DNA of 40,436 nt. Source: Mortierella sp. BCC40632. Taxonomy: Eukaryota; Mortierellomycota; Mortierellomycetes; Mortierellales; Mortierellaceae. The notes below the pieces were generated by a model, which was given only the letters and a program-made list of their open reading frames with translations, was not told where the DNA came from and searched no databases. The stretch is from positions 1 through 40,436 of the forward strand of contig WAEK01000046.1 of the NCBI GenBank assembly GCA_011634665.1, read 5' to 3'. Shown in pieces: positions 4,988 through 36,227 of this stretch; within the stretch, counting starts at the first letter, position 1; each line of letters opens with the position of its first letter. A program made the translations under genes and the position numbers.

Positions 4988-5944
4988 ATGGACATTAACA
5001 AAAAAATATTTTTCACACCAGTAATTACATATAATAATGTAGATACTGACAAATCCAAAATTTTATCAGATAACAGAGGTAAAACAGGAATTTACCTGTG
5101 GGAACATTTGAAATCTGAAAAAATTTATGTAGGTTCTTCAATCGATTTAAAAAATCGTTTATTAAAGTATTATAATATAGACTATTTAAAGCGTAATAAA
5201 ACTATGTATATATGTAATGCCCTTTTAGAGCATGGATTTGGAGCGTTTTCCTTATTTATCCTTGAATATTTCGATATTTCGAATTTATCAAAGGATGAGG
5301 CAAAAAAACTAATTCTAGAACGGGAACAACATTACTTAGATTCATTACGACCTGAATATAATATACTTAATAAAGCAGGTTCTTCGTTAGGTTATAAACA
5401 TACTGAAGAATCATTAATAAAAATTAGTCAAACTCATTTAGGTAAAACAGTTTCTACAGAAACTCCCTCCGGGGGTTTCCGCCCCGAAAGGGCAGAAACT
5501 ATAAAAAAACTTAGTGAAATTATGTCAGGAGAAAATCATCCTTTCTTTGGTAAAACCCATTCCACTGAAACTAAGGAGAAAATGAGAGTTGCTAATTTAG
5601 GTAAAAAACATTCTGATAAGACTAAAGCTTTAATTAGTGAAGCCCTTAAAGGTAAGAATCATCCTAATAAAGGTAAAAGTCATTCAGCTGAAACTAAAGC
5701 TTTACTGAGTAATATTAATAAGGGTAAATTTATTTTACCTGAGACTAAAGCAAAATTAAGTGAAATATTTGGTACTACTATATATATATATTCTCCTGAT
5801 AAGATAACATTAATTAATAGTTTTTCTTCCGCTAGAAAAGCTGCTGAGGAATTTAATGTTTCTAAGGATACAATTTTAAGATATGCAAAAAATGGTAAAT
5901 TATTTAAAGAACAATGGATCTTATCTACATCTTTAATTAATTAA
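4988..5944 (+). CDS. intact GIY-YIG homing endonuclease with NUMOD3/NUMOD1 tail
   Basis: A 318-residue uninterrupted protein, the best-preserved GIY-YIG HEG of the window. It has a pre-domain YNNVDTDKSKIL (15-26), GIY at 34-36, YVG at 47-49, a conserved Arg at 57 and the LEREQHYL glutamate region at about 110-117. NUMOD3-type repeats (HTEES, FFGKTHSTETK, NKGKSHSAETK) cover about 135-250, and a NUMOD1-like helix-turn-helix tail (FSSARKAAEEFNVSKDTILRYA) covers about 275-300. Family knowledge predicts a site-specific endonuclease that spreads its own cassette. Residues about 159-170 are encoded by a 36-bp GC hairpin insertion that keeps the frame. It lies within the cob intron whose core is at 6085-6225. 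Confidence 0.9.
   Translation: MDINKKIFFTPVITYNNVDTDKSKILSDNRGKTGIYLWEHLKSEKIYVGSSIDLKNRLLKYYNIDYLKRNKTMYICNALLEHGFGAFSLFILEYFDISNLSKDEAKKLILEREQHYLDSLRPEYNILNKAGSSLGYKHTEESLIKISQTHLGKTVSTETPSGGFRPERAETIKKLSEIMSGENHPFFGKTHSTETKEKMRVANLGKKHSDKTKALISEALKGKNHPNKGKSHSAETKALLSNINKGKFILPETKAKLSEIFGTTIYIYSPDKITLINSFSSARKAAEEFNVSKDTILRYAKNGKLFKEQWILSTSLIN
5459..5499 (+). repeat. double-hairpin element, 41 bp, in frame in a HEG
   Basis: Layout: GAAAC, hairpin arm TCCCTCCGGGG, GTTTC, arm CGCCCCGAAAGGGCA, GAAAC. CAGAAACT is directly repeated at 5457-5464 and 5493-5500, so the net insertion is 36 bp and adds twelve codons without breaking the ORF. The same 41 bases occur in reverse orientation at 15788-15828. 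Confidence 0.85.
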
Positions 5945-6084
5945 CCAAAAAGTTAACTCAGAACCTGAAGGGATAGAAGGGGACTATCCAATATGATACG
6001 TCATATTTTAACACCCAACTTTTGTTTTTCGCTTATATCTTTTATTTAATATTGGAGAGTATCATCGATCTCTCTGGCGACATT

Positions 6085-6225
6085 AGTGAAAACGGTTAAA
6101 AATTAATCTTCTTTTTTAAGACCGTCGGTTATGTGAATAATCGCTACAGACTGGGTCACTAATGGGTGTCTGATTTAGTTAATTAATTTTAATCTAAAAA
6201 TGATGCTTAATGTACAGTCGGAATT
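6085..6225 (+). ncRNA. group I intron core (cob), type 2
   Basis: GTGAAAACGGTTAA, then AAGACCGTCGGTT, AATCGCTACAGACTGG and AATGTACAGTCGGAA occur in order. This is the conserved pairing and active-site framework of a group I intron. The same blocks recur at 7240-7350 and 16070-16205, always downstream of a HEG and before a cob exon. The intron should end just before 6403. The 400 bases between the HEG and the exon hold only this RNA. Confidence 0.75.
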
Positions 6226-6402
6226 TCCAAAAATTATAAAGTCTAATTGCTTTTTAAAAGACTATATATATTTTTCACAAGGCCTTAAATGATACTTATT
6301 AGAAAGAGTTAAAACTTGGGGATTAATAAGTTGATAAGGTACAGGTAAATTGAACTAGAAGAAAATATATAAAACTATATTTATGTTTAATTTAGGAAAT
6401 TG

Positions 6403-6439
6403 GTATGTACTTCCATACGGGCAAATGAGCTTCTGGGGT
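6403..6439 (+). CDS. cob: cytochrome b exon YVLPYGQMSFWG
   Basis: The codons read YVLPYGQMSFWG, the highly conserved cytochrome b segment that contributes to the quinol-oxidation (Qo) side of complex III. The exon ends at T6439, matching the group I rule of U before the splice site. The intron's LAGLIDADG frame continues straight from it (GKFCAQDDLSF...). The upstream boundary is uncertain by a few bases: the glycine codon before YVLP is probably split by the intron. Confidence 0.8.
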
Positions 6440-7146
6440 AAATTTTGTGCCCAAGATGACTTAAGTTTTTTAAATACAAATCCAAACAATTTAATTTATA
6501 GTTCAATTTTACCTTTTATAGCTCCAAAAACAAAATCAGCGAATAGAATAGGTCCTCATGACTATAAGGTCCTTTCTATTTTGATTGGATCTTTATTAGG
6601 AGATGCCCATGCTGAAAAACATGGGAACGGTACTAGATTTTGCTTTCAACAAGAGCATTTACACAATTCTTATTTATTATGGTTTCATAATTATTTATGA
6701 ATTAGGATATTGTAATAGTACAATACCTAAAATAACTTCAAGAATAGGTAAACAAGGTAAATTAAGATATATTTCTAGATTTAAAACTTACACTTTTTCA
6801 AGTTTTAATTGGATCCATGAATCTTTCTATAAAGATGGTATTAAAGTAATACCTAATAATTTAGATGAATACTTATCACCTTTAGCTTTAGCAGTCTGGA
6901 TCCAAGATGATGGAGGAAAAGTATCCTCAGGCTTAAAAAAATAGCTACAAATAGTTATTACTTTATGATGAAGTTAATATTTTAGCTAAAAATATTAAGA
7001 GATAAATATAACTTAAAAGTATCTATTATAAAAGCTGGGGCTTTTAAATCAATATAATCTATATATCTCTAAATCGTCAATGAAAGATTTAGCAGAAATT
7101 ATAAAAACCTCATCTTCATCCATCGATGTACTATAAATTAAATGGT
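6440..7146 (+). pseudogene. cob-intron LAGLIDADG endonuclease, frameshifted
   Basis: Read in frame from the cob exon, the protein has NRIGPHDYKVLSILIGSLLGD (6541-6605, first LAGLIDADG helix). It shifts frame near 6690 and continues with FKTYTFSSFNWIHESFYKDGIKVIP and LALAVWIQDDGGK (6780-6920, second motif). It then breaks again near 6940. Its closest relative in the window is the intact HEG at 13880-14589. It probably once acted as endonuclease or maturase of its own cob intron. Confidence 0.8.
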
Positions 7147-7239
7147 TATATTTAAAAATTAAGTCATAGTTTTATCATTAGTAATTTTGCAATATATGAA
7201 TAGAAAAAATTATGTTTGATATGATAAAAGCAATATCAA

Positions 7240-7477
7240 TGAAAACGGTTAAAGAACAAAGTTTAAGACCGTCGGTTGTTCATACAATCGCTACAGACTG
7301 GCTCATTGGTAGGTGCCTGAAATGGTGCTTAATGTACAGTCGGAATCTTTATAATATTTTAATTAATATTATCACAAGGCTATCTAACGGTATTTTTACC
7401 TACTTAGCGTTATACACTAGGTTAGCATAGTACAGGAATAAATTTGTTTTTTGGTTAAAAAATTTATTAAAGATTAG
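7240..7477 (+). ncRNA. group I intron core and 3' end (cob), type 2
   Basis: GAAAACGGTTAAAG, AAGACCGTCGGTTG, AATCGCTACAGACTGG and AATGTACAGTCGGAA lie in order. The intron closes at G7477 before the GCA codon of the next exon. The intron is 6440-7477, with the HEG in its 5' part. Confidence 0.8.
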
Positions 7478-7648
7478 GCAACTGTAATTACAAACTTAAT
7501 GTCAGCAATACCGTGGATTGGTAATGATTTCGTAGAGTTTCTATGGGGAGGTTTCAGCGTAGGTAATCCTACTTTAAACAGATTCTTTAGTTTACATTAT
7601 TTATTACCATTCATATTAGCAGCTTTAGTAGTAATGCATTTTATAGCT
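7478..7648 (+). CDS. cob: cytochrome b exon ATVITNL...MHFIA
   Basis: This clean exon of 57 codons reads [18 protein letters not shown], then the [19 protein letters not shown] segment with the second haem-ligand histidine region, then [16 protein letters not shown]. Tryptophans are TGG. It starts right after G7477 and ends at T7648. The residues expected next (LHEHGS) are found only at 13864, so the intervening intron is about 6.2 kb. Confidence 0.9.
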
Positions 7649-7947
7649 CAAGTGTAGGGCCTTTATATTAGTAATAATATAATTAGCATCAAGCTATATG
7701 CTGGAATTTTCTAAAGCCTTAAATACCAAAATGTTAAATATTTGGTAAATATAAAGTACCTATATCTTAAACATTCGGTAAAAATTTTAAGGATAATATA
7801 ATGAATAATCAGCAGGTAACCGGTTTAAATGTATATTTATATACTAACAGGAACCTCAGAGACTACACGCTTGATATCCTATATGGAATAGATAGGATGA
7901 TGATATAGTCCAGTTTAATTTTGAAAAAAATTATTAGTTACTGTTCA
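7649..7947 (+). ncRNA. group I intron core (cob), type 3
   Basis: Starting at the exon, CAAGTGTAGGGCC, AAGCTATATGCTGGAA, AATCAGCAGGTAACC, CCTCAGAGACTACACG and GATGATATAGTCCAG are arranged as a compact group I core. It is closely similar to the cox2 intron 34846-35090. By that comparison the original intron would end near 7947 (ACTG), with the following 5.9 kb added later. No cob exon is clearly readable at that point. Confidence 0.75.
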
Positions 7948-8180
7948 TAACTCAACCGTATTTTCTTGACGGCATACGACTTTCAAAGTTGTTAAAAAAA
8001 TTCAGCTTTTTCGGAAGTAGGTGTATTTAGAAATAGATTAATATAAAGAAGAAAAGAAAAAATAAAGATATTTAATATAAATATGTTACTATTAGAAAAT
8101 TTAATTTTAGTAATGACGATACCACAAGCTTCTCTTTATTTATCAACAATCTTAATTCACAGATGTGCTTTTCTTATATT

Positions 8181-8240
8181 ATTTATTTATAATTATTTGA
8201 CATTTTTATTTATTTATAATTATTTGACATTTTTATTTAT
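8181..8240 (+). repeat. 27-bp tandem repeat
   Basis: Two exact 27-bp units (8181-8207, 8208-8234) and the start of a third. The unit is a multiple of three, so it encodes FIYNYLTFL twice. Confidence 0.9.
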
Positions 8241-8492
8241 TCAATATAACGGAAGGTTCTATCAACTATCAATTTATCATCAAAGTATGTTATTATTAGC
8301 GAAAAAGAAAGTAATTTTTACAAAATTATTAATTAATATTCTACTCAGTATTTTAGGGTATTATTTTATCCACCTTCTTCTAGAATATATTTTTTAGTAT
8401 CTTTAGATTACGATTGTCTTTTATCTGTTCTTCCAGTAATTGTTTATTCAAATGCTGAGACTGACAAATCAAGAATTTTATCAGATAACAGA

Positions 8493-8534
8493 GTAAAAGC
8501 TCCCTGGGGTTTTTACCCCCGGGGGAGGTAAAGC
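8493..8534 (+). repeat. double-hairpin element in a GKAGIY motif
   Basis: GTAAAAGC, C/G arm, TTTTTAC, C/G arm, GGTAAAGC. It interrupts the K-A codons before GIY in the HEG and shifts its frame. The same target is used at 15009. Confidence 0.75.
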
Positions 8535-8815
8535 AGGAATATACCAGTGGACTCATGAATCTGGTAAGATGTATATAGGCTCTGCTGTTGATATATCAAG
8601 ACGAATGTCACTTTATTTTTTATAAAAATATTTAGATTGAAATAAAAAGTATATTTGTAACGCATTAAAAGATTATAAATACTCAACATTTAGTCTTTCA
8701 ATTTTTGAATATATTGATATTACGAATTTATAGAAAGAAGAAGCACGTAAACTGATTCTTGAACGAGAGCAATATTATTTTAATTTTTTTCACCTAAATA
8801 TAATCTACTAAAACA

Positions 8816-8827
8816 GCGCGCAGCCGG
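8816..8827 (+). repeat. GCGCGCAGCCGG mini-insert
   Basis: It sits where intact HEGs have the Ala-Gly-Ser codons GCAGGTTC. The same 10-12 bases recur at 15412, 20514, 29655, 30167 and 35951. Confidence 0.8.
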
Positions 8828-9405
8828 TTCTTTTTATTAGGTTATAAACATACGGAAGAAACTATACAAAAAATTGAGAAAACCAAAATCTGATGAACAG
8901 AAAGCAAATATGAGCGGTTCTAAAAATCATTTTTGGTAAAACTCATTCCGCTGAATCTAAAGCAAAGATTAGTTTTGGGATGGGTACATCAATTTTTGTT
9001 TATTCTCGTGATGGTTCACTTGTTAATACTTTTTGTTCAGCTAGAAAAGCGGCTCTACATTTTAATGTAAGCAGAACTACAATATTAACTTAAAAATGGG
9101 AAATTATTTAGAAACGAGTGGCTCTTATCCATATCTGATAAATTTCCCTACTTTGAATAACACTGTTTTCAAAGAAGTATAACAATAGTAATTATATTAT
9201 AATATATTATAGATTGCTCAGTTGAAATTAGAGTTATTTTATCTACTGTAATCCTTCTCAGGTTTGAGAAATATTAATATTAGAAACACGTTAATGATAT
9301 AGAAAATTATTCAAATCTTTTTAACACCCACCCCGTTGCTGAAGGCCTTGTCAACCGCCAAACTTTTCCATACTAGCATAAGTAATTCGGTAAAAAAAAG
9401 ATTGA

Positions 9406-9449
9406 GTAAAGCTCTTTCGGGGATTTTTCCCCCCCCGGGGAGGTAAAGC
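9406..9449 (+). repeat. double-hairpin element in a NUMOD3 scrap
   Basis: GTAAAGC at both ends, with a degenerate inverted copy (GATTTTTC) between two C/G arms. It lies in a short NUMOD3-like scrap (RLSKAL) in the otherwise unassigned stretch 9141-9659. That stretch also has an AACACCCACCCC motif at 9323. Confidence 0.7.
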
Positions 9450-9659
9450 TGAAAGAGAAAATTATGAACTTGATGACTACTTTTACGTCAAGTATTAGTA
9501 GGTAATATACGGGAGGGTATAAAAAAATATTTATGAAAAATAAACAGGCTAAGACCGATTATTAAGAATTAACAGGAATTGATTAAAAGATAAGTTTAAT
9601 ACAAATCATGTCTTAATTGACATGATCTAGAAAGTTCAAATCTAATGTTCAAGTTTAAT

Positions 9660-10320
9660 AATTATATACGCAAGTTTTGTTAATAGATTATATAGTACTA
9701 AAAAGATTAACTAATGAAGAGAAGAATTTTTTTTCTGTTTCACCTCATTTACATGAAGTACTTATAGGTATTATTCTGGGCATGATGTTTCTGTTAAAAG
9801 AAAATCTACTATTCATAATACTTATTTATATTTTGAACAAGGGCTAATACATGAAGCATATATTCTACATTTATATGATTTGTTTAAGATTATTGTTCTT
9901 CAGGGCTCAATATAATGCCCGAAAACCTGATTTTTGGACGACGGTAAAAATATACACTAGAGTATATTTTATTACTAGATATTTACCTTGTTTCAATTAT
10001 TATTGTGATTTATTTTATGTAGATAAAGTTAAGAGAATTCCTTTTGAACATTGGTGAATTATTGACCCTGTAGGTTTAGCATATTGGGCAATGGACGATG
10101 GTAGTATAAAAATCATCTGGATTTTTATACTTTTGTACAGACTCTATACTTTAAGTGAAGTAGAATTATTGATTAAAGTATTGAAAGATAATTTTGATTT
10201 AAATTGTCCTATTCACAAAAGTGGAAATAATTATAGAATCTATATTAAGTCAGATTCGATGGATAAATTTAGATCTCTTTGTTACACCATATTTTCATGA
10301 ATCATTGATGTATAAACTTG
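9660..10320 (+). pseudogene. LAGLIDADG endonuclease relic
   Basis: The readable parts are HLHEVLIGIILGM (9745-9785, first motif region), a middle part with KIYTRVYF, then CFNYYCDLFYVDKVKRIPFEHW. AYWAMDDGS follows (10077-10107, second motif), then LSEVELLIKVLKDNFDLNCPIHKSGNNYRIYIKSDSMDKF. Stops and frame changes separate the blocks. It is clearly paralogous to the relic at 33860-34600 in the cox2 intron. It lies inside the cob intron that starts at 7649. Confidence 0.75.
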
Positions 10321-10379
10321 CAGTTTAATAATATCTTTTTTTTTTTTTTATTAATAAAATAAACACCCCTGTTGGGCCC

Positions 10380-10700
10380 CTCCCCCACATGAGAAGATTC
10401 TCCGAAAATTCTAACGTAAGAGTTATATTTAGACAAGGATCAACTAATGCATCTTATTTATTACATTTGTATGAATTATTTCAAAGATTTTGGTTAGTCC
10501 ACCTACTGTAACCAACATTTTAGATACAAAACAGGTAGAACTAGACATAATCTTAGTTTTTCTACTTTTTAGTTTTTCCATGTTTCAACAAATTATATGA
10601 TTCTTTTTTATGAAAAAAAAAAAAAAAATTCCAGATAATATTGTTGATCTCTTTAACGCCAGTAAGTTTAGCTTATTGATAATGTCCTAGAGAGATAAAT
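10380..10700 (+). pseudogene. second LAGLIDADG scrap
   Basis: NVRVIFRQGSTNASYLLHLY (10410-10470) and PDNIVDLFNASKFSL (10630-10675) match the middle of a LAGLIDADG HEG. No complete motif remains. It follows an AACACCCCTGTTGGGCCCC motif at 10362. Confidence 0.6.
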
Positions 10701-15008: not shown

Positions 15009-15058
15009 GGTAAAGCTCCCCTGGGGGGCTTTACCCCCCCCCCGGGGGAGGTAAAGCT
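15009..15058 (+). repeat. double-hairpin element, 50 bp
   Basis: GGTAAAGCT (15009-15017), arm CCCCTGGGG, inverted GCTTTACC (15028-15035), arm CCCCCCCGGGGGA, GGTAAAGCT (15050-15058). The period of 41 bp shifts the HEG frame at the conserved G-K-A codons before GIY. Confidence 0.85.
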
Positions 15059-15188: not shown

Positions 15189-15238
15189 GAGCTCCCCAGG
15201 GGGGGGGGCACCCCCCGGGCGGAGCGCCCGGAGGGAGC
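15189..15238 (+). repeat. GC element, type with CGGAGCG loop
   Basis: GAGC at both ends, GCTCCC...GGGAGC outer pairing, an inner CCGGGC / GCCCGG hairpin. It shares about 30 bases with the element at 29915 and interrupts the HEG codons for SRALILHS. Confidence 0.8.
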
Positions 15239-15787: not shown

Positions 15788-15828
15788 GTTTCTGCCCTTT
15801 CGGGGCGGAAACCCCCGGAGGGAGTTTC
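15788..15828 (+). repeat. double-hairpin element, 41 bp, inverted copy of 5459
   Basis: GTTTC, arm TGCCCTTTCGGGGCG, GAAAC, arm CCCCGGAGGGA, GTTTC. This is base for base the reverse complement of 5459-5499. Confidence 0.9.
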
Positions 15829-16268: not shown

Positions 16269-16323
16269 AAAGGCCTGCCCCCCGGGCGGGCCCTTCCCTG
16301 CGGGAAAGGCCTGATAAGAATTT
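16269..16323 (+). repeat. double-hairpin element, 55 bp, near the intron 3' end
   Basis: AAAGGCCTG is directly repeated (16269-16277, 16315-16323). Between lie a GCCC/GGGC arm, a near-inverted GGGCCCTT and a CCC/GGG arm. It sits 12 bases before the splice site. Confidence 0.75.
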
Positions 16324-20525: not shown

Positions 20526-20655
20526 ATCTACTCTGGGATTTAAACATTCAGAAAAGTCTTTAGTCAAGTTAAGTCTTGCCAAAACTGGTGAAAATCATCC
20601 AATGTTTGGTATAACTGGTAAAGATCATCCTTCTTATGGTAAAATACATTCTGAG

Positions 20656-20696
20656 GAAACTCCCTCCGGGGGTTTCCCCCCTAGAAGGGGGGAAAC
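20656..20696 (+). repeat. double-hairpin element, 41 bp, in frame
   Basis: GAAAC, arm TCCCTCCGGGG, GTTTC, arm CCCCCCTAGAAGGGGGG, GAAAC. The left arm is identical to 5459; the right arm differs. It adds 12 codons in the E-T pair of a NUMOD3 repeat. Confidence 0.85.
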
Positions 20697-21002
20697 TCGA
20701 GTAAAAATTAGTGAAGCCTTATCAGGTGAGAATAATCCACGAGGAATGTTAGGTAAAACTCATTCTATTGAAACTCTAGCTAAAATTAGTGCTGCTAAAG
20801 GAACCACAATTTTTGTATATAATGTTCAAGGCATATTAGTAAAATACTTTTAATTCAGCTAATAAAGCGGCTGAATTTTTTGGTTGTTCACATCCTACAA
20901 TTGTTAAATATACAAAAAATAATAAGTTATTTCAAAGTAAATGGTAGTTATCTTTTTCTAAAGATTTTTTTAGTAAGTCCTAACAAAGGCTCTTCAGATA
21001 AT

Positions 21003-21514: not shown

Positions 21515-21558
21515 GGTAAGCTCCCTCTCGGGGCTTTACCCCCCTGGGGAGGTAAGCT
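21515..21558 (+). repeat. double-hairpin element in non-coding DNA
   Basis: GGTAAGCT at both ends (21515, 21551), with GCTTTACC between a CTCCCTCTCGGGG arm and a CCCCCTGGGGA arm. It lies 11 bases after the Phe-like tRNA. Confidence 0.75.
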
Positions 21559-23214: not shown

Positions 23215-23625
23215 AGGTAAATTTCCATTTATTTAGATATAATCTATCAGTATCAAGACGTTTATTTATTGTATCGGTATGACATTAAAAGAATTCGCTT
23301 GCTTCTTTAATACTATTAAATATTATAAAACTATTATCAATATTACTAACTACCCGGGGGTCGCTCCCCTCGGTGTAGCTCCCGAAGGGAGCTATAATTT
23401 TTAACATTCTACCAGAGCGTAAAGGTTTATTAGATTTTATATGAACACGTTTTGAATCTACTAACTTTGGGAGGAGGGGGGTGTAAATATCAAAAGCCTT
23501 GATAATACACGGGATTAAAATTGAGAACGCAATAATTATAGGAAGCATATTACACCAGATTGCAGACATAAGTTGATCATATCTTAATCTCGGAAAACTT
23601 GCTCTAATCCAATGTGTTTATTTTC
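23215..23625 (-). pseudogene. nad1: third nad1 3' end fused to a HEG tail
   Basis: On the minus strand RASFPRLRYDQLMSAIWCNM, then LPIIIAFSILIPCIIKAFDI and YTP (23614-23489), is the C-terminus of NADH dehydrogenase subunit 1. It runs in frame into LVDSKRVHIKSNKPLRSGRM, the tail that follows the LAGLIDADG HEG behind the main nad1 (26310-26095). So this looks like a nad1-end-plus-HEG unit with the nuclease deleted. The frame crosses a GC element (23348-23394) and stops near 23285. The tail continues in pieces to NKWKFTS near 23220. Confidence 0.8.
23348..23394 (+). repeat. double-hairpin element at a site empty at 26220
   Basis: AACTA, a CCCGGGG-rich arm, TAGCT, arm CCCGAAGGG, AGCTA. The paralogous tail at 26161-26240 has a single AGCTA (26220-26224) at the same place, giving a direct empty-site comparison. 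Confidence 0.85.
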
Positions 23626-25413: not shown

Positions 25414-25760
25414 TTATATAACTCGGGGGGTGTAAATATCAAAAGCTTTGATAATACACGGAATTAAAATTGAGAACGCAATAACGATAGGAAGCATGTT
25501 ACACCAAATAGCTGACATTAACTGATCGTATCGTAATCTCGGGAATGACGCACGTATCCAAATTATCAAGAATAACATGAATGAAGTTTTCAATCCAAGA
25601 GATAAACCAGTAAGTAGACCGTTTGATTCAATTCCAGGTACCAAATATCCACCCAAGAATAAAATTGAACTAAGAGTACTTAAAAAAATACAATACTACC
25701 GTACTGCAAGGAAGAAGAAGAATACAAAAGGGAAGGCAGAATATGATGGTGGGGTGTTTA
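25414..25760 (-). pseudogene. nad1: second nad1 3' end
   Basis: From 25656 down, GGYLVPGIESNGLLTGLSLG, then LKTSFMLFLIIWIRASFPRL, then RYDQLMSAIWCNMLPIVIAF and SILIPCIIKAFDIYTP are nearly identical to the main nad1. Upstream (25760-25657) the matching SAFPFVFFFLA and STLSSILFL segments are present, but indels at a T7 run and at the expected EYG break the frame. It ends PRVI-stop. It lies between the LAGLIDADG unit and the GIY-YIG HEG. Confidence 0.85.
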
Positions 25761-26094: not shown

Positions 26095-27389
26095 TTCCAT
26101 TTATTTAGATACAACCCATCAGTGTTAATACGTCGACTTATTGTATCGGTATGACACTTAAAGAACTTGCTTGCTTCTTTAATACTATTAAATTCCATAG
26201 AACTATTATCAATATTTTTAGCTAGAATTTTTAGCATTCTACCTGAACGTAAAGGTTTATTAGATTTTATATGTACTGTTTTGAATCTACTAAATGATAT
26301 AAAGGTTCCAGAGATAAAACTTCATTAATCATTTTTTTGAGTAATTATTGGTTTATCATTTAGATTCTTATAAGTAGATAATCGATAATTATTCATATTC
26401 ATTTTCAAATCATTTATTAATTTTTCACCTTGAGGGTATAAATGAATACCAGAATAATATAACTTAACTATAATTGCCCAATCTTTATAGTCAAGTTGTT
26501 TTTTAGAATAAAATTCTAATGAGTCTAATAATGGTAAAAGTGTATTATGTAAAAAGATAATATCTTGACAAATTAATCTTACCATTGATTGCTCATCCTT
26601 ATATCGATTTGTTATTTTTTGTTCTTGTAATGTACCAGAACTAAAATATTCTGATATTTTTTTAAGAACAGCATAATCTTTTATTGATTGAGCTATACTT
26701 AAAAAGGGCATTGATTTAGTAGTTGTGAATGATCCATCACCTTCAATAAAACCTAAAAGCCATGAAGGTGTTATTCTAATAGAATGCTTAGACGGCATTT
26801 CATAGTTTGTTCTGGATCTATTCATCTTATTTTTTAAATTTAAAATTTGTAATTTTCCATTATCGGTTAAATGCTCTTTTCTCTGCATAATATCTAAAGT
26901 TTTTTTAAAATCAAGATAATTTAAATATTTTGTAGTATTGAGAGGAAATTCTTCCAATATTGGTACAATAATATTTATTAAATCACTTTGTTTATTAATA
27001 GTATATTGAGATATACTTTTACCTTTTGAGATAACACCACAACCTAATTTTGTATGTAGAATTTTCAATAAAGGTAATTCGTCTATATGTAAAACAATTT
27101 TTATCATTAAACGAAAAGTATTATCTTGTCTATAATTTATATAAAAACATCCCTCAGCATCTAAGAATCCAACAAACCATTGTTTAAATTCCGGAGTTTG
27201 GCCTTTTAAAATAGAATTGTAGTTAATTAAAGATTTTTGATCTTTTATATTTTCTGTAGAAAAACATAAAGCTTGTTTTAAAGTAAAAGAAGGAGTAACA
27301 AAAGGGCTATAAGCCATTTTATTTACTGCACCAGGTCCCAGAGAACCATTTGGAAGAAAAGTATTAAAATTATTAAATAAGTTTATCAT
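26095..27389 (-). CDS. LAGLIDADG homing endonuclease behind nad1
   Basis: A 354-residue frame (27389-26325) has an N-terminal extension, then WFVGFLDAEGCF (about 71-82) and WLLGFIEGDGSF (about 210-221). These are the two LAGLIDADG helices with their catalytic acidic residues and a normal spacing. The frame stops at a seven-A run. With one A fewer it would continue MINEVLSLEPLYHLVDSK into a 70-residue tail (KSNKPLRSGRMLKIL ... NSIKEASKFFKCHTDTISRRI), which also exists fused to the third nad1 end. The nuclease core itself is intact, so activity is plausible. It starts about 490 bases after the nad1 stop. Confidence 0.85.
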
Positions 27390-27875: not shown

Positions 27876-27880
27876 AATAA

Positions 27881-28738
27881 TTATACTTTTCGTGGGTTTG
27901 GGGTGTAAATATCAAAAGCCTTGATAATACACGGAATTAAAATTGAGAACGCAATAACTATAGGAAGCATATTACACCAAATAGCTGACATTAACTGATC
28001 GTATCGTAATCTCGGAAATGACGCACGTATCCAAATTATAAGGAATAACATGAATGAAGTTTTCAATCCAAGAGATAGACCAGTCATTAAACCATTTGAT
28101 TCAACACCAGGTACTAAATAACCTCCTAAGAATAGTATAGAAGATAAAGTACTTAAGAACACAATACTACCATATTCAGCTAAGAAGAAGAACACGAATG
28201 GAAACGCACTGTATTCAGTCATGAACCCAGCTGTTAATTCTGATTCTGATTCTGGTAAATCAAAAGGTGCTCTATTACTTTCAGCTAATATAGCTATTAA
28301 GAACATTAATGCTATAGGGAATAATGGTACAATATACCAAATAGCTTTTTGAGATTCTATAATTGTAGTTAAATTAAATGAACCTACAAAAAATATCACT
28401 AATAAAATTATTAACCCAAAAACTACTTCATAACTTATTAATTGTGCTGTAGCTCTTAAAGAACCTATAAATGAATATTTATTGTTTGAGGCCCAACCCG
28501 CTAATATAATTCCATAAGCTGCTACTGAAGATATAGCTAAAATTGTTACAATACCTAAAGAAAAATCAGCAATTACTAAACCTTTTCCATACGGTATTAG
28601 AGTCCAAACTAATAAACCACAAACTAAAGAAATCATAGGCGCTAATACAAAAAGTATTTTATCTGTATTTGAAGGTAATACTAATTCTTTAACTAGTAAT
28701 TTTAAAGCATCTGCGAATGCTTGTAATAACCCATAGTA
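27881..28738 (-). CDS. nad1: NADH dehydrogenase subunit 1, main exon
   Basis: 285 codons starting YYGLLQAFADALKLLVKELV and ending FDIYTPNPRKV-stop. It is the membrane subunit of complex I next to the quinone site, with the conserved AESNRAPFDLPESESELTAG loop and RASFPRLRYDQLM. All tryptophans are TGG. The first 40-50 codons (up to RRxGPNxVG) are missing: the exon begins straight after G28739 at the end of a group I intron. No matching first exon is visible further up the minus strand. Two extra 3' ends lie downstream. Confidence 0.95.
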   Translation of the reverse strand, partial: YYGLLQAFADALKLLVKELVLPSNTDKILFVLAPMISLVCGLLVWTLIPYGKGLVIADFSLGIVTILAISSVAAYGIILAGWASNNKYSFIGSLRATAQLISYEVVFGLIILLVIFFVGSFNLTTIIESQKAIWYIVPLFPIALMFLIAILAESNRAPFDLPESESELTAGFMTEYSAFPFVFFFLAEYGSIVFLSTLSSILFLGGYLVPGVESNGLMTGLSLGLKTSFMLFLIIWIRASFPRLRYDQLMSAIWCNMLPIVIAFSILIPCIIKAFDIYTPNPRKV

Positions 28739-29110
28739 CAAATCTATCCTTCTAGTTATTTATTATTAAACATTATAAATATACCTAAGGATCCTTCTCC
28801 CTAAATAGTTAAACTATCCATTTAACGGATAATAAATTTATTATCCTGTAAAATTTTTCAAGTAGGGTCTGACTATATCTTTTAAGCTTGCGCCAACCAC
28901 CGTATAGTCGATGAACTGCACACCATTTTAAAAAATGGTGCTTTTTGGCTGCGGATTACCCATTTTCCTCTCGTACATCAATTTCGATTTTACTATACCA
29001 CGAGTCATTACCTGTGCCACAAGACATGTTACCATTCTTGTTTAGTTGAAATTGCTTTAGGGCGTTCCCGCAATTTGATGGTTTATAGCTAAAGGTTTAC
29101 TTTAACTTTA
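28739..29110 (-). ncRNA. group I intron core before the nad1 exon
   Basis: On the minus strand AAATTGCGGGAACGCCC, GGTAATCCGCAGCC, GTTCATCGACTATACG and AAGATATAGTCAGACCC follow each other. These are textbook P, Q, R and S blocks of a group IB-like intron. The 3' end is G28739. The 5' exon is not recognised, so the upstream limit is only the end of visible core similarity. Confidence 0.85.
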
Positions 29111-29914: not shown

Positions 29915-29960
29915 AGCTCCCCCTATGGGGGCACCCCGGGCGGAGCGCCCGGAGGGAGCT
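29915..29960 (+). repeat. GC element, type with CGGAGCG loop
   Basis: AGCT at both ends, hairpin CCCCC-TAT-GGGGG, hairpin CCGGGC-GGA-GCGCCCGG, outer GCTCCC/GGGAGC. Nearly the same core as 15189-15238. Confidence 0.85.
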
Positions 29961-30520: not shown

Positions 30521-30646
30521 ATTTTGAAATATTTACTTTTAATTTTGTTTTTTAATTAATCCTCCCTGTATACTGAACTCTAGGATTAATTGAATCTTAC
30601 AATGAAAGATAACCTTTACTATAGATTATAACTATAAAAAAATAAT

Positions 30647-30760
30647 TTAAGCCTTTGGAAAATAAAAGGTTTGAAAAGGGAGCCTGGGGGTGTTAACTGA
30701 TTGTACAGGTAATTGACCTTCAAATGCATGGAATGCTGGAGAAGACGTTATCGCCCACTC
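30647..30760 (-). CDS. cox1: cox1 terminal exon (3' end)
   Basis: Minus strand GEWAITSSPAFHAFEGQLPVQS (about 30766-30698) is the C-terminal tail of cytochrome oxidase subunit 1 (the usual LEWxxxSPPxxHxFxxLP). The frame continues through GTTAACACCCCC to a TAA at 30649-30647, where related copies show the C-run motif. No neighbouring cox1 exon is recognised upstream on this strand within the window. This may therefore be a displaced gene end rather than the working one. Confidence 0.65.
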   Translation of the reverse strand, partial: EWAITSSPAFHAFEGQLPVQSVNTPRLPFQTFYFPKA

Positions 30761-30769
30761 CCCCTAGCG

Positions 30770-31139
30770 TAGTTGCAGTTTTCGTAATACCAGCACCTTC
30801 AGGCTAGTAAAGAAAGCTGGAAACAAATTCCCTGAATAATTTGTTATTTGGCAGAAATTAAAACCAAATAGAAAATAACTTTAGGCTAAGTTTAACTATT
30901 CCTCCGAGCTAGTGCCCGGGTATGGAACTACCGGGATCAATTTATATATATTTTTGAAGAGTTCGTATTTATTACCGAAAACCCTTAGAGAAAGATATGA
31001 TATATTGTTTTTAAAATTTTTTACCACTTTTAGCATAAATTTAACACTGTTTCTCTTAGAAACGTTTAATCCCATAGCGGCTTTTAGAAGTTTGAAGGAA
31101 AACTATTAACCAGTAGTTTTATCTAAAAGAAAATAAAAA
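30770..31139. other. unassigned stretch
   Basis: No gene is recognised. A hairpin around CCCGGGTA..TACCGGG (30916-30936) stands out. If the cox1 exon is spliced, this may be intron sequence. Confidence 0.3.
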
Positions 31140-31800
31140 ATAGCAGCCCTCTCTTTCGCACCATCATTTTTTGCTTTTTAGTTTCTTTTCAGAAGGAAAT
31201 TTACCTAGCTTAGCTTCACTTTTTTTGCTTTTGTTTCAGCACTATGATTTTTTCCAAACATAGGATGATTTTCACCCATCCTTTTCGCCAATGATTCCGC
31301 TGAATGAGATTTACCTTCAAACATAGGTGATTTTCTCCCTTATTTAACTTACTGGTAAAGCTTTAGTCTCCCTCAGAATGTTTAAAACCCAGAGAAGAAC
31401 CGGGCAATTTTTGAATATTATATTCAGGTTTTAAGCTCATCAAAAATAAAACTGTTCCTCGAGAAATCAGTTTCTCCTCTTCACATATTGGAAATACTAT
31501 AAAAAATGAAATCTTGTAATTTGTATTTATTTATAGCTCTTTTGGAGTAAAAATATTTGATTTAGAACCAACAATATGGTCATTGAAACGAGAATATAAC
31601 CACTGAAGAACCAAATATAATTTACGCGTTGTTTTACAAAAAAATCCATAAATACCAGATTTATTTTTTTTATTTCTCTAATAATTGCTTTTTATGCTTT
31701 CTAAAAAACAATCCTTGAGAATAATCCCCTATAAAGTTAGAAAAATACTGTAAATTTTAATCAAATTTTTATCATTATTATTATTATTCATTCCCCGCTA
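31140..31800 (-). pseudogene. decayed GIY-YIG homing endonuclease
   Basis: Minus-strand frames show KSGIYGFF (near 31650), LKPEYNIQKLPGSSLGFKHSE (31430-31370) and GENHLCLKVNLI-type NUMOD3 remnants (31330-31250). The nuclease core is largely lost. It is the only HEG relic on this strand between cox1 and cox2. Confidence 0.6.
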
Positions 31801-33239
31801 TTTTTATTTTTTTTTTAATGCAGACTCTAATAACTTCTCAGAAGCAAATTTTTATTTAAGTTGAACATTTTATAATAATATAAATCCCATAATTACAGCT
31901 TTCTACCATGAAATAATTTTTTCCCAGAAAACTTCCCCAGTAGAAATTTTTATTAGAAAAACTGATTTACAAAAATTTTTATAATTTTTTCATGGGTTTT
32001 TGCACTTAACTTGATTATACGATTATAATTTTATAATCTTTTACCCGACAAACTCGTCCGGTTAATCAACCTTGATACTGGAATTGAACTACAATAAAAG
32101 AGCCTTAATAATATTATTATTGGGATATAATACAATATTTTATTCCATATTTAATGATCAGCAAGAGAAGGGGCCAAAGCTTTTATTATTACATGCTAAT
32201 GTAGATATGATACATTTCTCGAAGTCGGAAGTCCAAAATCTTAACTCTGGACTCCGCGATTGTTTTCGACGATCCCATTTACGTTCAGTGTAACGTAAGT
32301 TATAGAACCCAATAAAAAGGGTCCCATACAATTTCACGCTTTCTAAATAAATTATCATATTATTTTATTATTATTTCTTTATTCTATTGATCCCAATAAT
32401 CGTTTTACTTTTTATAGAATTCTCAGTTTTTTATATATAAAATTAGAGTCTATAAAATGTGGTTTGCTTTATAAGTTAAGAATAAAATAGTAAAACAAAG
32501 TGAGACCAACAAATATTTTGTTGCATCCATATTCATCATCTAATATATTGAAAGTTACCAGAAATTGTCAGTAATAGAATGAAAGAATTGGAACCATCAT
32601 TGTCTTATTGCACAAACATAATACCATAAAAAGTATTATTTCGGTTGTTATAATTTTTTCGGGGATAAAAAGGAGAAAAAGTCATATTTTAAAATGATTA
32701 TTGTTAATTTAAGAATTATTCTTAAGCTTCTCATTTGAAAGTTGTAAAGCTTACTAAAAGATAATAACTTTTATTATAAAAATGTTGGTCCCTCAATTTA
32801 TGGTTGTTTTATGTTTTCTTTATAAATGGGAAAAACGGAAAACACTTGAATGATTAAACCATTATTATTAAGTTTCGAAGAAATTCCATGATTTTAATAT
32901 ATTTATTTTGTCGTCTTTATCTACTTAAATAGAGCATTAAAAAAATTATTATATTATTAAATCCGGTTAAAATTAATAGTCAGGGATATAATTATTTTTA
33001 GTCAGTTCATCAGGTGTAAATCAAATAGTTTAAGTAAAACAGCGATCTCTTAGATATTTTAAAATATTTCCGAAAGCTGAGAGCTTCGGGTTAATTCTTT
33101 TTATCCCACCTCTACCCACCCAGATACGAGTTTTTCGCCCACAATATTTCTTGATTTTTATTCTTTGCTTTTTATAGATTTCTTGTTTATCGAATCTCAC
33201 ATTATTAAACCACTCGGTGCCTTTACACGACTACCAGGT
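31801..33239. other. AT-rich unassigned stretch with gene scraps
   Basis: The only recognisable items are a minus-strand peptide LVTFNILDDEYG (about 32600-32490), similar to the one at 17352, and a partial tRNA-Arg-like piece with CTTCGAAACTTAATAATAAT (minus, about 32890-32860). No complete gene is seen in 1.4 kb. Confidence 0.4.
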
Positions 33240-33530
33240 TAACCATTTTTATTGGCAACGGTCAAAAACATTCAGCTGAAAACTAAAAAATGAGTTTAGC
33301 AAAAATAAAAAAAAGAGTATTTGTTTCTTTCGGATTCTTCTAATAAAATTGGCATAAATCTTTGATAATTGAAAGAAGAAGTGACATTGTTGTCTTCCAT
33401 GCACATTATCTAGATATATAGATAAAACAAAATTATTTAGAAAAGAATGGATTTTATCTTACTTCCCACTTAAAGATAAATGGATTTTATCAACTTCCTT
33501 AATTTCTAAGAATACTAGTAGGGTTATAAT
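33240..33530 (+). pseudogene. NUMOD3/NUMOD1 tail scrap of a GIY-YIG HEG
   Basis: KHSAENxKMSLAKIKKRVFV and later KQNYLEKNGFYL and KINGFYQLP are readable in shifting frames. The tail appears twice in a row, suggesting a local duplication. It is followed by an AACACCCCC motif at 33578. Confidence 0.55.
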
Positions 33531-33639
33531 ATACTATACTCCACTATGCTAACGTTTAATCAAAAAATTCTTGATTAACACCCCCGTGCCTTCCCCGCGA
33601 ATGGGGGTTTTTAATATTAAATTATGAAATTCACTTTGA

Positions 33640-33712
33640 ATAGATTTGAACTATTATTATTAAGTTTCGAAGACTCACACTTCTTTCCAGTTGTTGTGCT
33701 TAATTAAAAATC
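33640..33712 (-). tRNA. tRNA-Arg-like relic (UCG)
   Basis: On the minus strand AGCACAAC, TGAGT-CTTCGAA-ACTTA and AATAG-TTCAAAT-CTATT align with tRNA-Arg(UCU) at 22150. The acceptor 3' strand CAAAGTG does not pair with the 5' strand, so it is probably a degraded copy. Confidence 0.45.
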
Positions 33713-33859
33713 GTTTGTCCTTCTATATTGTATTATTGATTAAAAGTGGCTATAACCGTTATGAATGAGAAATACAGAATTTGTGGTGTTAGCATGGTTA
33801 AACGAACAATTAAACTCCCCCTTAGTGAAGAGAACTATTAACTTTTAAGTACGTCTTCT

Positions 33860-34620
33860 ATTTTAATTAAATATTCAAAAACTCTAAAAAATTCTCTTCC
33901 TATTGATGAACCTAAAACCTCTTCAAAATTTTTATTAGATAGAAGTTATAGTTAACACGAAGATTAACTAAAATTGAAAAGAGATTCATTTTCTATACCT
34001 CAGCATTTACATGAAGTTATCATAGGTAATTGTTTAGGCGATCTTTATATTCGTAAAACATGCTAAGGGGATAAATGCTAATTTAATGTTTGAAACAAGG
34101 TATAATTCATGAAGCATATATCTTACATTTATATTCTTTTTTATTTAAAGATTATTGTAGTTCAGCAATCCAAATACAGTGAGTTTAAAACCCGATAAAC
34201 GTACAGGTAAAAGTATATACTAGAATTCAATTAAGTTCTTACGCCTTACCTTGTTTTAATTATTATCGGGAATTGTTTTATATTGATGGTGTTAAAACCA
34301 TTCCTTTTAAATATAGGGGAACTTTTAACACCTGTAAGTTTAGCATATTGGGCAATGGATGATGGTTTTTCACAAAGTTCAGGGTTTACATTGTCTATTT
34401 TGAATCTTATTCTTTTTAAAGAAATAGAATTATTGATTAAAGCTTTTTAAAAAGATAATTTTGATTTAAATTGTTTTATTCATAAAAGTAAAAATAGCTA
34501 TAGAATTTATATAAAATCGGATTTCATGGATAATTTTATATTCTTTTTGTTACACCTCATTTCTATGAATCAATGATGTATAAACTGTTACCTAACTATT
34601 TTTACTAATATTTAATTTAC
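33860..34620 (+). pseudogene. LAGLIDADG relic in a cox2 intron
   Basis: The pieces PQHLHEVIIGNCLGDLYI (34000-34050, first motif), GIIHEAYILHLYS, SIYTRIQLSSYALPCFNYY, LFYIDGVKTIPF and AYWAMDDG (34340-34365, second motif) lie in shifting frames, as does DLNCFIHKSKNSYRIYIKSD. It is a paralogue of 9660-10320. It directly precedes a cox2 exon and so is probably the ORF of the upstream cox2 intron. Confidence 0.75.
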
Positions 34621-34704
34621 TTTTTAATAAAAAACTTAAACTAATTATACTCCCCCCTTTTACTGTATTTTTTACAAAATTAAACATTCTAAAACCATAC
34701 CATG

Positions 34705-34845
34705 TTAGATTTATTTTAACTGGTAGCGATGTTATACATTCTTTTGCCGTTCCAGCTTTAGGTCTTAAATTAGATTCTATCCCAGGTCGGTTAAATCAAA
34801 CTTCTACGTTTATTAACCGAGAAGGGTTATTCTATGGTCAATGTT
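34705..34845 (+). CDS. cox2: cytochrome oxidase subunit 2 exon
   Basis: [20 protein letters not shown], then [20 protein letters not shown] and LFYGQCS. This is the copper-A domain of cox2, with the first His ligand in DVIHSF and the first Cys in GQCS. The exon probably starts after G34704 and ends at T34845, so that the Ser codon is split. Earlier exons (N-terminus and membrane helices) are not seen directly upstream. Confidence 0.9.
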
Positions 34846-35090
34846 CAAATTCTGGACCTTTTTATATTGGTAACAATATAATTTGTATTAAGCTATATGC
34901 TGGAACATCCTTAGAGCCTTAAGTACCATTTATTGTGAGTAAAGGTAAAAAATCTTAAGGATTGGACAATCAGCAGGGAAACCCATTCGGAACTCGGTGG
35001 AGATCCTCAGAGACCAGATGCTTAACATCCTTTTATGGAAAAGGATGATGATATAGTCCAGTTTTATTTTGAAATAAATTATTAATACTG
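34846..35090 (+). ncRNA. group I intron (cox2), type 3, no ORF
   Basis: AAGCTATATGCTGGAA, AATCAGCAGGGAAACC, CCTCAGAGACCAGATG and GATGATATAGTCCAG are in the same order as in the cob intron at 7649-7947. Start after T34845 and end at G35090 restore QCSELCG. Confidence 0.85.
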
Positions 35091-35117
35091 CAGAGTTATG
35101 TGGTGTAAATCATGGGT
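35091..35117 (+). CDS. cox2: 27-nt cox2 micro-exon (ELCGVNHG)
   Basis: CAGAGTTATGTGGTGTAAAT plus CATGGGT completes S and encodes ELCGVNHG, with the second Cys and the His of the copper-A site, then the first base of Phe. Both flanks are group I introns of different families. The bridging of CuA ligands makes exact splicing essential. Confidence 0.9.
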
Positions 35118-35397
35118 TAAATTAAAGCCCCTTAGAGTAGTAATACTTTAATGCAAATAGGGTGAATTGCAAAAACATCCTTTTCACAGAGGGATAATTT
35201 GCAGCGAAGCGTATATCAGTGTCTTTATAGGTATACGAACGTTCAACGACTAATCGGTGAGCAGCACTAGCAATAATCCGGACACGAGTGCCCCCACAAC
35301 CATTTACCATCAAGTATATTGGTTGATAACATAGTTCAAGCCAATAGGTAACTATTGGAAGATAGAGCCAAAAACACTTTATCGATAATAATTTCTG
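35118..35397 (+). ncRNA. group I intron (cox2), type 1, no ORF
   Basis: AATAGGGTGAATTGCA, AATTTGCAGCGAAGC, CGTTCAACGACTAATC, ACATAGTTCAAGCC and GGAAGATAGAGCC are the P/Q/R/S-like blocks. The intron begins TAAATTAAAGCCCC and ends G35397. It is the best-preserved member of the family also found at 492 and 16730. A 63-codon minus-strand frame in it is an antisense shadow. Confidence 0.9.
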
Positions 35398-35468
35398 TTA
35401 TGCCAATTGTTATCCAAGCTGTTTCTCTTGAGAAATATTTAGCTTGGTTAAATGAGCATTTAAGTTAG
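35398..35468 (+). CDS. cox2: cox2 terminal exon
   Basis: Completes F, then MPIVIQAVSLEKYLAWLNEH, LS and TAG (35466-35468). This is the C-terminal end of cox2 with the methionine ligand of copper A. Clean frame; an AAACACCCCCC motif follows at 35541. Confidence 0.92.
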
Positions 35469-35540
35469 AATGCTCCCGATTTCTGTCTATAATTAGGCAG
35501 TTCTCGAAAATTTTAGTTTAGCTTAACGAATACTTAAGCT

Positions 35541-35552
35541 AAACACCCCCCC
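35541..35552 (+). terminator. AAACACCCCCCC motif after cox2
   Basis: A C-run motif 72 bases behind the cox2 stop, the same string as behind both cob ends. It is followed by GGCTCCGCG and a spacer. Candidate 3' processing signal. Confidence 0.45.
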
Positions 35553-35657
35553 GGCTCCGCGTCTTAATAATATTAATTATTAAAGTGACCGTGTCCGATT
35601 CATATAATATAAATAATTAAATCTCATTTTTTGTATTAAATTAAAAATTTCTAATCA

Positions 35658-35793
35658 TGTTATTAAACTTTTTCAATTTTAATGTTACTCTTTGTGACAT
35701 GTTAATACCTTGGCGATTTTCTATTCAAGATAGGGCATTACCATCTTTTGATAGAATTATTAATCTTGATCAAATTATGTTCTGTGCTTTTTG
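35658..35793 (+). pseudogene. cox2: cox2 5'-end-like fragment
   Basis: MLLNFFNFNVTLCDMLIPWR, then FSIQDRALPSFDRIINLDQI and MFCAF-stop. This resembles the start of fungal cox2 (the usual D-x-PTPW-x-x-x-FQD-x-A-TP, EGIIxLHxxI), but with changes at several fixed positions and an early stop. It lies 190 bases after the cox2 stop and just before a LAGLIDADG relic. That suggests a HEG cassette that carries a cox2 start, in parallel with the cox1 start on the GIY-YIG cassettes. Confidence 0.6.
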
Positions 35794-35950
35794 ATATGTG
35801 ATTATTTAAATATGTCAATAATCTTAAATGAAGAAAGTTTATTGACTTTAAGCTTATCTACTTTAATAATAAATTATTCTAAGGATCGTAAAGAACCAAT
35901 TTTATTAAATGAACCTCAAGTTCCAATAAATATTTCTCCTTCGTTCATAA

Positions 35951-35961
35951 CGCGCAGCCGG
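35951..35961 (+). repeat. CGCGCAGCCGG mini-insert
   Basis: Splits the codons of the LAGLIDADG motif T-GFADAEG. This is the only copy in a LAGLIDADG gene. Confidence 0.8.
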
Positions 35962-36187
35962 TTTTGCTGATGCTGAAGGTTGTTTTGATTTTGCTATTAG
36001 TAAATCTAAAACCATTAATACAGGATTTAGTGTTAAACCTCGATTTAGAATTACTGCTCATGTGCGAGATATTGTATTATTACATATGATAAAAAAATAT
36101 TTCAATTGCGGTAATATTAGTAAAATAGATCTTAAAGATTGTTTAGATTTCACAGTATCAGATCAATATAGTATTAAAAATATTATA

Positions 36188-36227
36188 GTTCCTCCCACAC
36201 AGGGGGGGAACCGCCGGAGGCAGTTCC
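36188..36227 (+). repeat. double-hairpin element, 40 bp
   Basis: GTTCC, arm TCCCACACAGGGGG, GGAAC, arm CGCCGGAGGCA, GTTCC. Here target and inverted target differ completely from the GAAAC and GGTAAAGC elements, yet the layout is the same. Confidence 0.85.

Follow-up and report, generated by a model that had tools for sequence, protein, structure and literature searches.

What decides the sequence in the middle of a mobile GC-rich double hairpin? The question is raised by a 40,436-nucleotide stretch of DNA (hereafter the window), part of the ~169 kb circular mtDNA of a Mortierella-type soil fungus, where short elements contain an inverted copy of the word that flanks them. The circle has been assembled several times over, and contig overlaps are 94-98% identical over long stretches with the same elements in each. 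Such overlaps were considered as a source of empty sites and dropped; they carry no presence/absence information because they are apparently the same loci assembled again, with the elements in common. Other contigs of the same locus (C33 and C42 among them) were used to check noisy window readings: homopolymers are noisy in this assembly, and the majority or cleanest contig reading was taken for elements f, g, h, i, j, l, m and q (letters denote individual loci).

Eighteen loci, ten of them in the window (Table 1), read A-GnC-hairpin-Gn'C-hairpin-GnC-T, Gn'C being the reverse complement of GnC. By sequence, each short element consists of two adjacent GC-rich hairpins, enclosed by two copies of GnC (4 to 8 bases) and separated by the inverted Gn'C, with inserts of 32-52 bp. 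When four full elements were folded as single-stranded DNA, the best structure had two hairpins in a and m and a single long hairpin in g and q. The count leaves out element s, two relatives located on C33 (38716, 79035), the 12 loci of family D, in which n is empty, and C33:52410, C33:89650 and C40:16643, which have direct repeats of six and a weak or absent centre. The fit to the layout is imperfect for s, C33:38716 and C33:89650, and limited to a palindromic core for p. Each of the eleven places named in the first-pass annotation does hold a GC-rich element of this type, those at 5459, 15788, 20656, 15009 and 36188 being clean in the window. The layout is clearer in other contigs for those at 1435, 8493, 9406 and 21515; at 16269 only the GGCC core fits, and 23348 is imperfect.

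Table 1. GC-rich double-hairpin elements in the window.
Element	Position	Strand	Reading
f	1435..1465	+	Flanks GGAAAC, centre GGTTTCC in three other contigs (3/4 contigs); window middle noisy
a	5459..5499	+	GAAAC / hairpin / GTTTC (5475-5479) / hairpin / GAAAC; 36-bp in-frame insert in GIY-YIG ORF (4988-5944)
h	8493..8534	+	Target GGTAAAGC at GIY-YIG codon; window copy noisy; centre GCTTTACC in 3/4 contigs, both flanks GGTAAAGC in 2/4
i	9406..9449	+	Target GTAAAGC; centre GCTTTAC in 3/4 contigs; window centre noisy
g	15009..15057	+	GGTAAAGC / hairpin / GCTTTACC (15028-15035) / hairpin / GGTAAAGC; at GIY-YIG codon
family D	15190..15238	+	Related, larger; AGC repeats, n empty
c	15788..15828	-	Hairpins and target as in a, opposite strand
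p	16270..16311	+	Flanks AAGGCC, centre GGCCCTT (16289-16295); exact for self-complementary core GGCC only
d	20655..20696	+	GGAAAC / hairpin / GTTTCC (20672-20677) / hairpin / GGAAAC; 36-bp in-frame insert in GIY-YIG ORF (20602-20853)
j	21515..21557	+	Target GGTAAGC; window centre GCTTTACC, but GCTTACC in C33 and C42
s	23348..23394	-	Imperfect; flanks TAGCT/TAGTT, centre AGCTA (+ strand: flanks AACTA and AGCTA, centre TAGCT)
family D (second)	29915..29959	+	AGCT flanks
m	36188..36227	-	Target GGAAC (GTTCC on +); centre 36207-36211

In the chosen contig readings, 17 of the 18 loci have a centre that inverts the inner target exactly, over a length of 4 to 8 bases. An A precedes the left copy in 18/18 loci and a T follows the right copy in 17/18. 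The centre has a G before it in 16/17 and a C after it in 17/17, although word borders were placed where the match ends and these two bases may simply belong to the hairpin arms. The inversion is limited to GnC, with A and T adjoining at the flanks and G and C at the centre. A first reading, in which the whole AGnCT was inverted, was dropped for these differing borders, and the earlier claim that the flank is also present inverted between the arms holds for GnC but not for the whole repeated AGnCT. The word begins with G in 17/18 loci, and also in p if GGCC is taken as the word. For p, the three AAGGCC-type words agree in full in 0/3 contig versions, and the fit of its core says nothing about inversion because GGCC is self-complementary. 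In j, 2/3 contigs read the centre as GCTTACC, which matches the reverse complement of the flank GGTAAGC exactly. Furthermore, the insert opens with T at 18/18 loci, including h, which has A as its right neighbour, and at 12/12 loci of family D, among them three with a right-hand A. Only T plus a few C / G and A are common to the ends of the elements. Fixed terminal inverted repeats and a fixed duplication length, both expected of a DNA transposon or MITE, are lacking, as is the reverse transcriptase or ribozyme that a guide-paired retroelement (group II intron like) would carry inside; none is found in these 32-52 bp inserts.

Noisy homopolymers and the ease with which GC-rich arms pair leave some room for chance, selection for GC palindromes or assembly artefact, an account that we consider extremely improbable in view of matched controls. 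Flank-centre complementarity, the comparison proposed by the first-pass annotation, lies far above all three controls. In a scan of five contigs with 5-base arms and 60% GC spacers, which counts overlapping stretches repeatedly, reverse-complement centres numbered 29 against 3 direct, 0 reversed and 0 complemented; without the GC condition the figures were 302 against 248, 225 and 219. With the strict grammar, both strands of 169,205 non-redundant bases gave 25 reverse-complement matches against 4 direct, 0 reversed and 0 complemented, counts that take many loci twice; we read the 25 matches as 16 loci. Two of the four direct matches are self-complementary words; minus such words the result is 23 against 2, both of the latter being family D elements. 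In two mtDNA-like records from the plasmid set the layout is not in excess: one contains 3 reverse-complement, 5 direct, 0 reversed and 3 complemented centres, and the other contains no match. Moreover, 15 of the 19 candidate loci are present in two to four contigs, the 36-bp inserts are in frame, and a related protein lacks one of them.

The centre also follows the individual target. Each of six clearly different non-palindromic targets is found complete in its own centre and in none of the others (1/720 arrangements), and adding two palindromic words gives 8/8 own-centre matches (1/40,320). A looser earlier test with ten targets found 0/200,000 permutations as good, the own centre being the single best for 5/10, equalled by others for 4 and surpassed for 1 (q); it was re-run with six and eight targets because some of the ten share a centre. 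Independent matches are fewer than 18, since several targets differ only at the GC edge and share one centre, namely GAAAC/GGAAAC, GGAAC/GAACC and GTAAAGC/GGTAAAGC. The inverted-target pattern is confirmed as real and beyond chance.

Paralogous empty sites hold the target word once and filled sites hold it twice in their flanks, while a related protein lacks exactly the 12 residues that correspond to the 36-bp insert of element a. These two lines of evidence show the flanks to be a true target-site duplication, upholding the earlier claim that the flank is duplicated. At the known empty sites, the insert adds a hairpin, an inverted target, a second hairpin and a second target to the single pre-existing target; presence and absence at homologous sites is seen through paralogs and one related protein rather than strains. 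The paralog search covered 12 of the 19 candidate loci (a, b, c, d, e, g, m, n, o, p, r, s). Among the matches listed, it was usable for a, b, d, g and s, too weak for c, and returned filled sites only for e, m, n, o, p and r. For example, TAGCTA stands only once in a stretch paralogous to s (26101-26293), where no element is present. Among 120 of the 448 relatives of the protein encoded by element a's ORF, plus 17 others, a crude composition scan picked up no element-like insert, and searches for relatives in viral contigs, prokaryote genomes (the best 80 of 92 matches) and phages recognised no fungal mtDNA.

The elements are a variant of known mitochondrial hairpin elements. Like the double hairpins of Allomyces (Paquin et al. 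2000, as described in PMC2800124) and Schizosaccharomyces (PMC10085805), they are short GC-rich hairpin pairs scattered in fungal mtDNA and presumed mobile. Those of Allomyces are reported, in the available text, without flanking duplications (PMC2800124), whereas in this mtDNA the duplication takes in a 4- to 8-base word and its borders, and the inverted word lies between the hairpins; the available account of the Schizosaccharomyces elements mentions neither duplication nor inverted centre (PMC10085805). Yeast GC clusters such as GC42 are likewise GC-rich and palindromic, with short AG or ACT direct repeats alongside, a single AG in many empty sites, and units that merge and shuffle, according to the available parts of that source (PMC4478555). 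Their AG-type flanking repeats recur here (A before the word in 18/18), but in the present elements the duplication runs between AG and CT half-sites whose spacing varies, and its inner part reappears inverted inside the element. The byps of Magnusiomyces are also short inserts at many places in mitochondrial genes (PMC5009743). A byp is skipped during translation; elements a and d are in frame. The ultra-short invasive elements of Podospora (Koll et al. 1996) are alike by title, as ultra-short mitochondrial insertions (PMC7218506). Our literature searches found no description of the inverted-target rule.

How did the inverse get there? The first-pass annotation suggested that the target is copied three times. 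This view is partly supported: the centre does invert the target in 17/18 loci and tracks six non-palindromic words, but an element that brings a centre of its own and enters only matching sites would be expected to show the same. We put at about even the prospect that, in these mobile GC double hairpins of fungal mtDNA, the target dictates the middle sequence through copying. Somewhat short of even is a more specific version, in which each insertion would stamp the inverted target between two interchangeable hairpins, with no fixed core and a centre rewritten at every jump (two-ended break capture). A putative endonuclease would cut A-GnC-T to leave a 3' overhang GnC on both ends, the cut position being read from the edge of the inverted part. 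Each 3' end would gain a hairpin module, roughly T CCC-loop-GGG G, from other elements, as the shared modules hint. The hairpin would then fold back and be extended along its own overhang, giving Gn'C at one end and GnC at the opposite end and stopping at the duplex, and the complementary copies would anneal and be filled in to yield GnC-hairpin-Gn'C-hairpin-GnC. The sharp edge of the inversion, with G and C, suggests such an overhang-sized copy. If true, a sharp-edged inverted target copy inside a duplication would be a footprint of the strand cut site and of the part copied. DNA and RNA models for the movement of fungal mitochondrial GC hairpins both stand in the available texts (PMC2800124, PMC4478555), and the question would become directly testable by strain comparison.

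Copying is favoured because some targets are found in one element only, the variant target at 21515 is matched in its centre, and the same modules occur with different targets. The targets GGTAAGC, GGGTAAAC, GTAC and GGTC are each used by one listed element only. Elements a and d have one hairpin in common and differ in the other, as do n and o; module CCCTCCGGG adjoins GAAAC/GGAAAC targets and also the AGC targets of family D, and module CCCCTGGGG adjoins GGTAAAGC, GGTAAGC and AGC. These private targets and reused modules weigh against the main rival, which we rate as rather unlikely: that the centre belongs to the element, its linker Gn'C pairing with a matching GnC (as RNA or single-stranded DNA) before repair duplicates the target, or its GnC sticky ends fitting only the same overhang, with new centres arising by mutation. 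A guide should tolerate some inner mismatches, and there are none in 17/18 loci. All 5/5 AGGTAAAGCT words in the circle lie within elements; three AGGTAAAGC words lie outside elements, though. An element-borne centre would, on the other hand, be expected to yield what is seen in a, b and c, where hairpins and target are identical at three loci; as g, h and k are also similar, some elements move or are duplicated as units. The centre GGTTTCC is common to six loci (a to f) and GGTTCC to m, n and o, and nearly all loci have a G.T wobble beside the centre, which would be compatible with pairing. Regarding target choice, the second and third commonest AGNNNCT words of the mtDNA, AGAAACT and AGAACCT, serve as targets four times and twice, yet no listed element sits at AGAATCT, the commonest.

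Another account, which we hold to be highly improbable, is loose targeting to A-G..C-T, with the centre corrected to the flank afterwards through hairpin-templated repair (quasipalindrome correction). In agreement with it, wherever the native gene sequence is known the flanks retain it and the centre fits them, but mismatches just outside GnC should vanish too and are kept in nearly all loci. The A..T versus G..C difference is unexplained by entry as a small closed dumbbell or minicircle [GnC-hairpin-Gn'C-hairpin] through one crossover in GnC, a miniature of the dogbone model of inverted triplication, which we judge improbable. The repeat unit can close, with GnC paired to Gn'C and hairpins capping the ends, and a crossover would give the observed layout; the large-scale model likewise yields a triplication with an inverted middle copy (PMC10766183). 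However, recombination over 4 to 8 bases would be required, and the large-scale assay, in the available text, caught linear inverted fragments and no circles (PMC10766183). Origin-dependent inverted repeat amplification shares the order T / inverted T / T, with hairpin-capped intermediates proposed there, but it concerns chromosomal segments with a replication origin and junctions at native inverted repeats, as far as that text describes it (PMC10766183), in contrast to the 4-8 bases, added GC modules and lack of an origin here.

Returning to copying from the target, one-ended events should leave half elements, and these are almost absent, which counts against it; an element-borne centre is better served, as the double form seems to move whole. 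Among half structures with at least 5 bases, 14/17 are part of full elements. We found no clear single-hairpin element obeying the same rule in this material; C40:42922 (TCTAG-CCCTCCGGG-TCTAG) is a candidate single-hairpin element.

Short GC-rich double-hairpin elements in this mtDNA share the layout A-GnC-hairpin-Gn'C-hairpin-GnC-T, in which a target word (GnC) stands on both flanks and its reverse complement (Gn'C) between the hairpins, as the first-pass annotation had proposed. We oriented 18 loci (designated by single letters) with their repeated word in the form GnC, picking readings among contig versions. The base preceding the left word is then A and the insert's first base T at all 18 loci, the base following the right word is T at 17 (A in h), and the insert's last base is A at 15, G at two (d, i) and either of these, depending on the contig, at l. 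The centre is exactly inverted at 17 of the 18 loci, the exception being p; it is preceded by G at 16 of 17 (C in n) and followed by C at all 17. These border bases indicate that AGnCT is the repeated part and GnC the inverted part, with the caveat that word borders were set at the match end, where a match-prolonging base cannot occur. The bordering G and C may belong to the hairpin arms. Target words comprise GAAAC, GGAAAC, GGTAAAGC, GTAAAGC, GGTAAGC, GGGTAAAC, GGAAC, GAACC, GTAC and GGTC, with GGCC for p; GTAC and GGCC are self-complementary and by themselves uninformative on inversion. At q, by reading of contig versions, a longer repeat, GCAGTACTAG, agrees with its centre in 8 of 10 bases.

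The sequence covered comprised contigs C33, C40, C46 (the window, 40,436 bases), C48 and C49 in full, whereas C36 and C42 were read in short stretches. A stricter score found 23 GC islands in the window, against a mean of 0.1 over ten shuffles, and a looser one 230 in the five full contigs (157 groups once repeats were removed). For arms of 5 bases and spacers of 60% GC, the inverted layout occurs 29 times in these five contigs, and control centres three times (direct) or never (reversed, complemented). Dropping the GC condition leaves only a slight excess (302 inverted versus 248 direct, 225 reversed and 219 complemented), hence the layout belongs to GC elements. Under a strict grammar, both strands of the mtDNA circle yielded 25 inverted centres (16 distinct loci by reading) versus 4, 0 and 0; self-complementary words account for two of the 25 and two of the four direct matches, the remaining two being larger AGC-repeat elements (family D). 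Across contig versions of 19 candidate loci, homopolymers are noisy and the layout mostly holds; at j, a variant centre fits its variant target in two of three contigs.

Empty sites for 12 loci were sought in paralogous frames. Among the matches listed, words like GCAGAAACTAAAG occur at several loci for a, AAAGGTAAAGCAGG at C33:21264 for g, and TTAGCTAGAA at C46:26101 for s (the same locus again in C33); those for b and d are less clean. Both a and d are 36-bp inserts whose host frames remain open, and from a related protein 76% identical to the a-bearing frame (P0241) precisely the insert's 12 residues are missing; another (P0244) also lacks 12. Where visible, the flanks are therefore a duplication of a once-single word. 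Loci g, h and k occupy the same codon in paralogous genes and may be a single insertion copied along with the gene.

Targets match their own centres over a mean of 5.83 bases, versus 2.47 for other elements' centres (18 loci). In a permutation test on ten targets, the observed sum was reached in none of 200,000 rounds; the own centre was sole best for five, tied for four and beaten for q, such ties arising because several targets have one centre in common. When each distinct centre was represented by a single target and whole words were compared, all six non-palindromic targets fit their own centre alone (1 of 720), and adding two palindromic targets gives 8/8 (1 of 40,320). Since this exact test holds on the reduced set, our estimate for target copying was kept despite fewer independent targets. 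We give about an even chance to a 3' overhang GnC being copied by folded-back ends, which then anneal, the steps beyond target duplication being those that we infer. Copying of the overhang by its own folded-back end would yield the observed inversion edge, and the complementary GnC and Gn'C would allow two such ends to anneal. The main alternative, which we consider less likely, is a centre that belongs to the element and locates targets or sticky ends matching it; this would account for the identical a, b and c. A minicircle crossover seems improbable.

Read inward, the hairpin consensus is about T CCC-loop-GGG G, and modules recur in different settings. Module CCCTCCGGG (15 places) adjoins the words GAAAC and GGAAAC, as well as AGC in family D; CCCCTGGGG (15 places) adjoins GGTAAAGC, GGTAAGC and AGC and, depending on contig version, also occurs in f. 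Loci a and d have one hairpin in common and the other different, as do n and o, whose common hairpin is unusual and which also have a word in common. Halves that lack a second hairpin are uncommon (3/17 of those with 5 or more bases, one being a noisy h copy). In family D the edges read A-GC-T, with nothing between G and C (12 loci). The last AGC is followed on its right by A in three of 12, and the insert's first base is nonetheless T in all 12, so this T belongs to the element.

Positions of double-hairpin loci in the window and of other features of this mtDNA
Feature	Position	Strand	Remark
Double-hairpin loci	window a 5459, c 15788, d 20655, f 1435, g 15009, h 8493, i 9406, j 21515, m 36188, p 16270, s 23348
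Family D	C33:43698, 47490, 51724, 81254, 84640, 85054; window 15190, 29915; C40:33333, 37309, 37578, 42441		larger elements; AGC repeats; terminal hairpin modules common with double-hairpin elements
TCTAG-CCCTCCGGG-TCTAG	C40:42922		commonest module by itself, flanked by two direct repeats; possible single-hairpin insertion
12-base word GCGCGCAGCCGG	window 8816, 15412, 20514; C40:20110		fixed; four groups of loci
Single hairpin around CCCGTTGGGCCCC	C33:39258, 39543, 83920, 86263 and others		sometimes adjoins TGTT; without target rule
nad4	window 38501-40315	-	3' end fused in frame to GIY-YIG/NUMOD3 gene; same fusion in proteins P0001, P0002
nad1 C-terminal pieces	window 23285-23569, 25414-25656, 27881-28741		repeated

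An inverted target between two hairpins was not found in the literature searched (titles, abstract openings and passages), and priority is not certain. In the passages seen, flanking duplications are reportedly absent from Allomyces elements (PMC2800124), yeast GC clusters carry AG or ACT repeats and shuffled units, a single AG being present at 25 of the 89 homologous positions (PMC4478555), fission yeast double-hairpin elements form conserved families (PMC10085805), Fusarium has AT palindromes (PMC7218506), and large-scale inverted triplication via dogbones or hairpins is already known (PMC10766183).

The eukaryote assembly comprises 62 contigs (49.9 Mb). One polymerase III subunit encoded there shares 97% identity with that of Mortierella alpina, 96% with that of Haplosporangium bisporale and 94% with that of Actinomortierella wolfii, which makes a Mortierellaceae host very probable. 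By reading of frames, the window holds cob, nad1 and nad4 exons; it also contains group I introns along with frames of the GIY-YIG and LAGLIDADG types. Repeated nad1 C-terminal pieces are expected of mobile genes that bring a new gene end. The assembly has 83 GIY-YIG matches (a redundant count), one of them on contig C9. Besides the window, mitochondrial genes were found on C33, C36, C40, C42, C48 and C49. One circle links C33, C46 and C40 through overlaps (non-redundant part 169,205 bases), and this ~169 kb mtDNA is present several times over among these seven contigs; that of a relative, Linnemannia amoeboidea, measures 49,702 bp (PMC8856043). Two unannotated bacterial 'plasmid' records, NZ_CP110133.1 and NZ_CP053901.1, carry a nad1-like stretch (~70% identity) and look like mitochondrial DNA recorded as plasmids.
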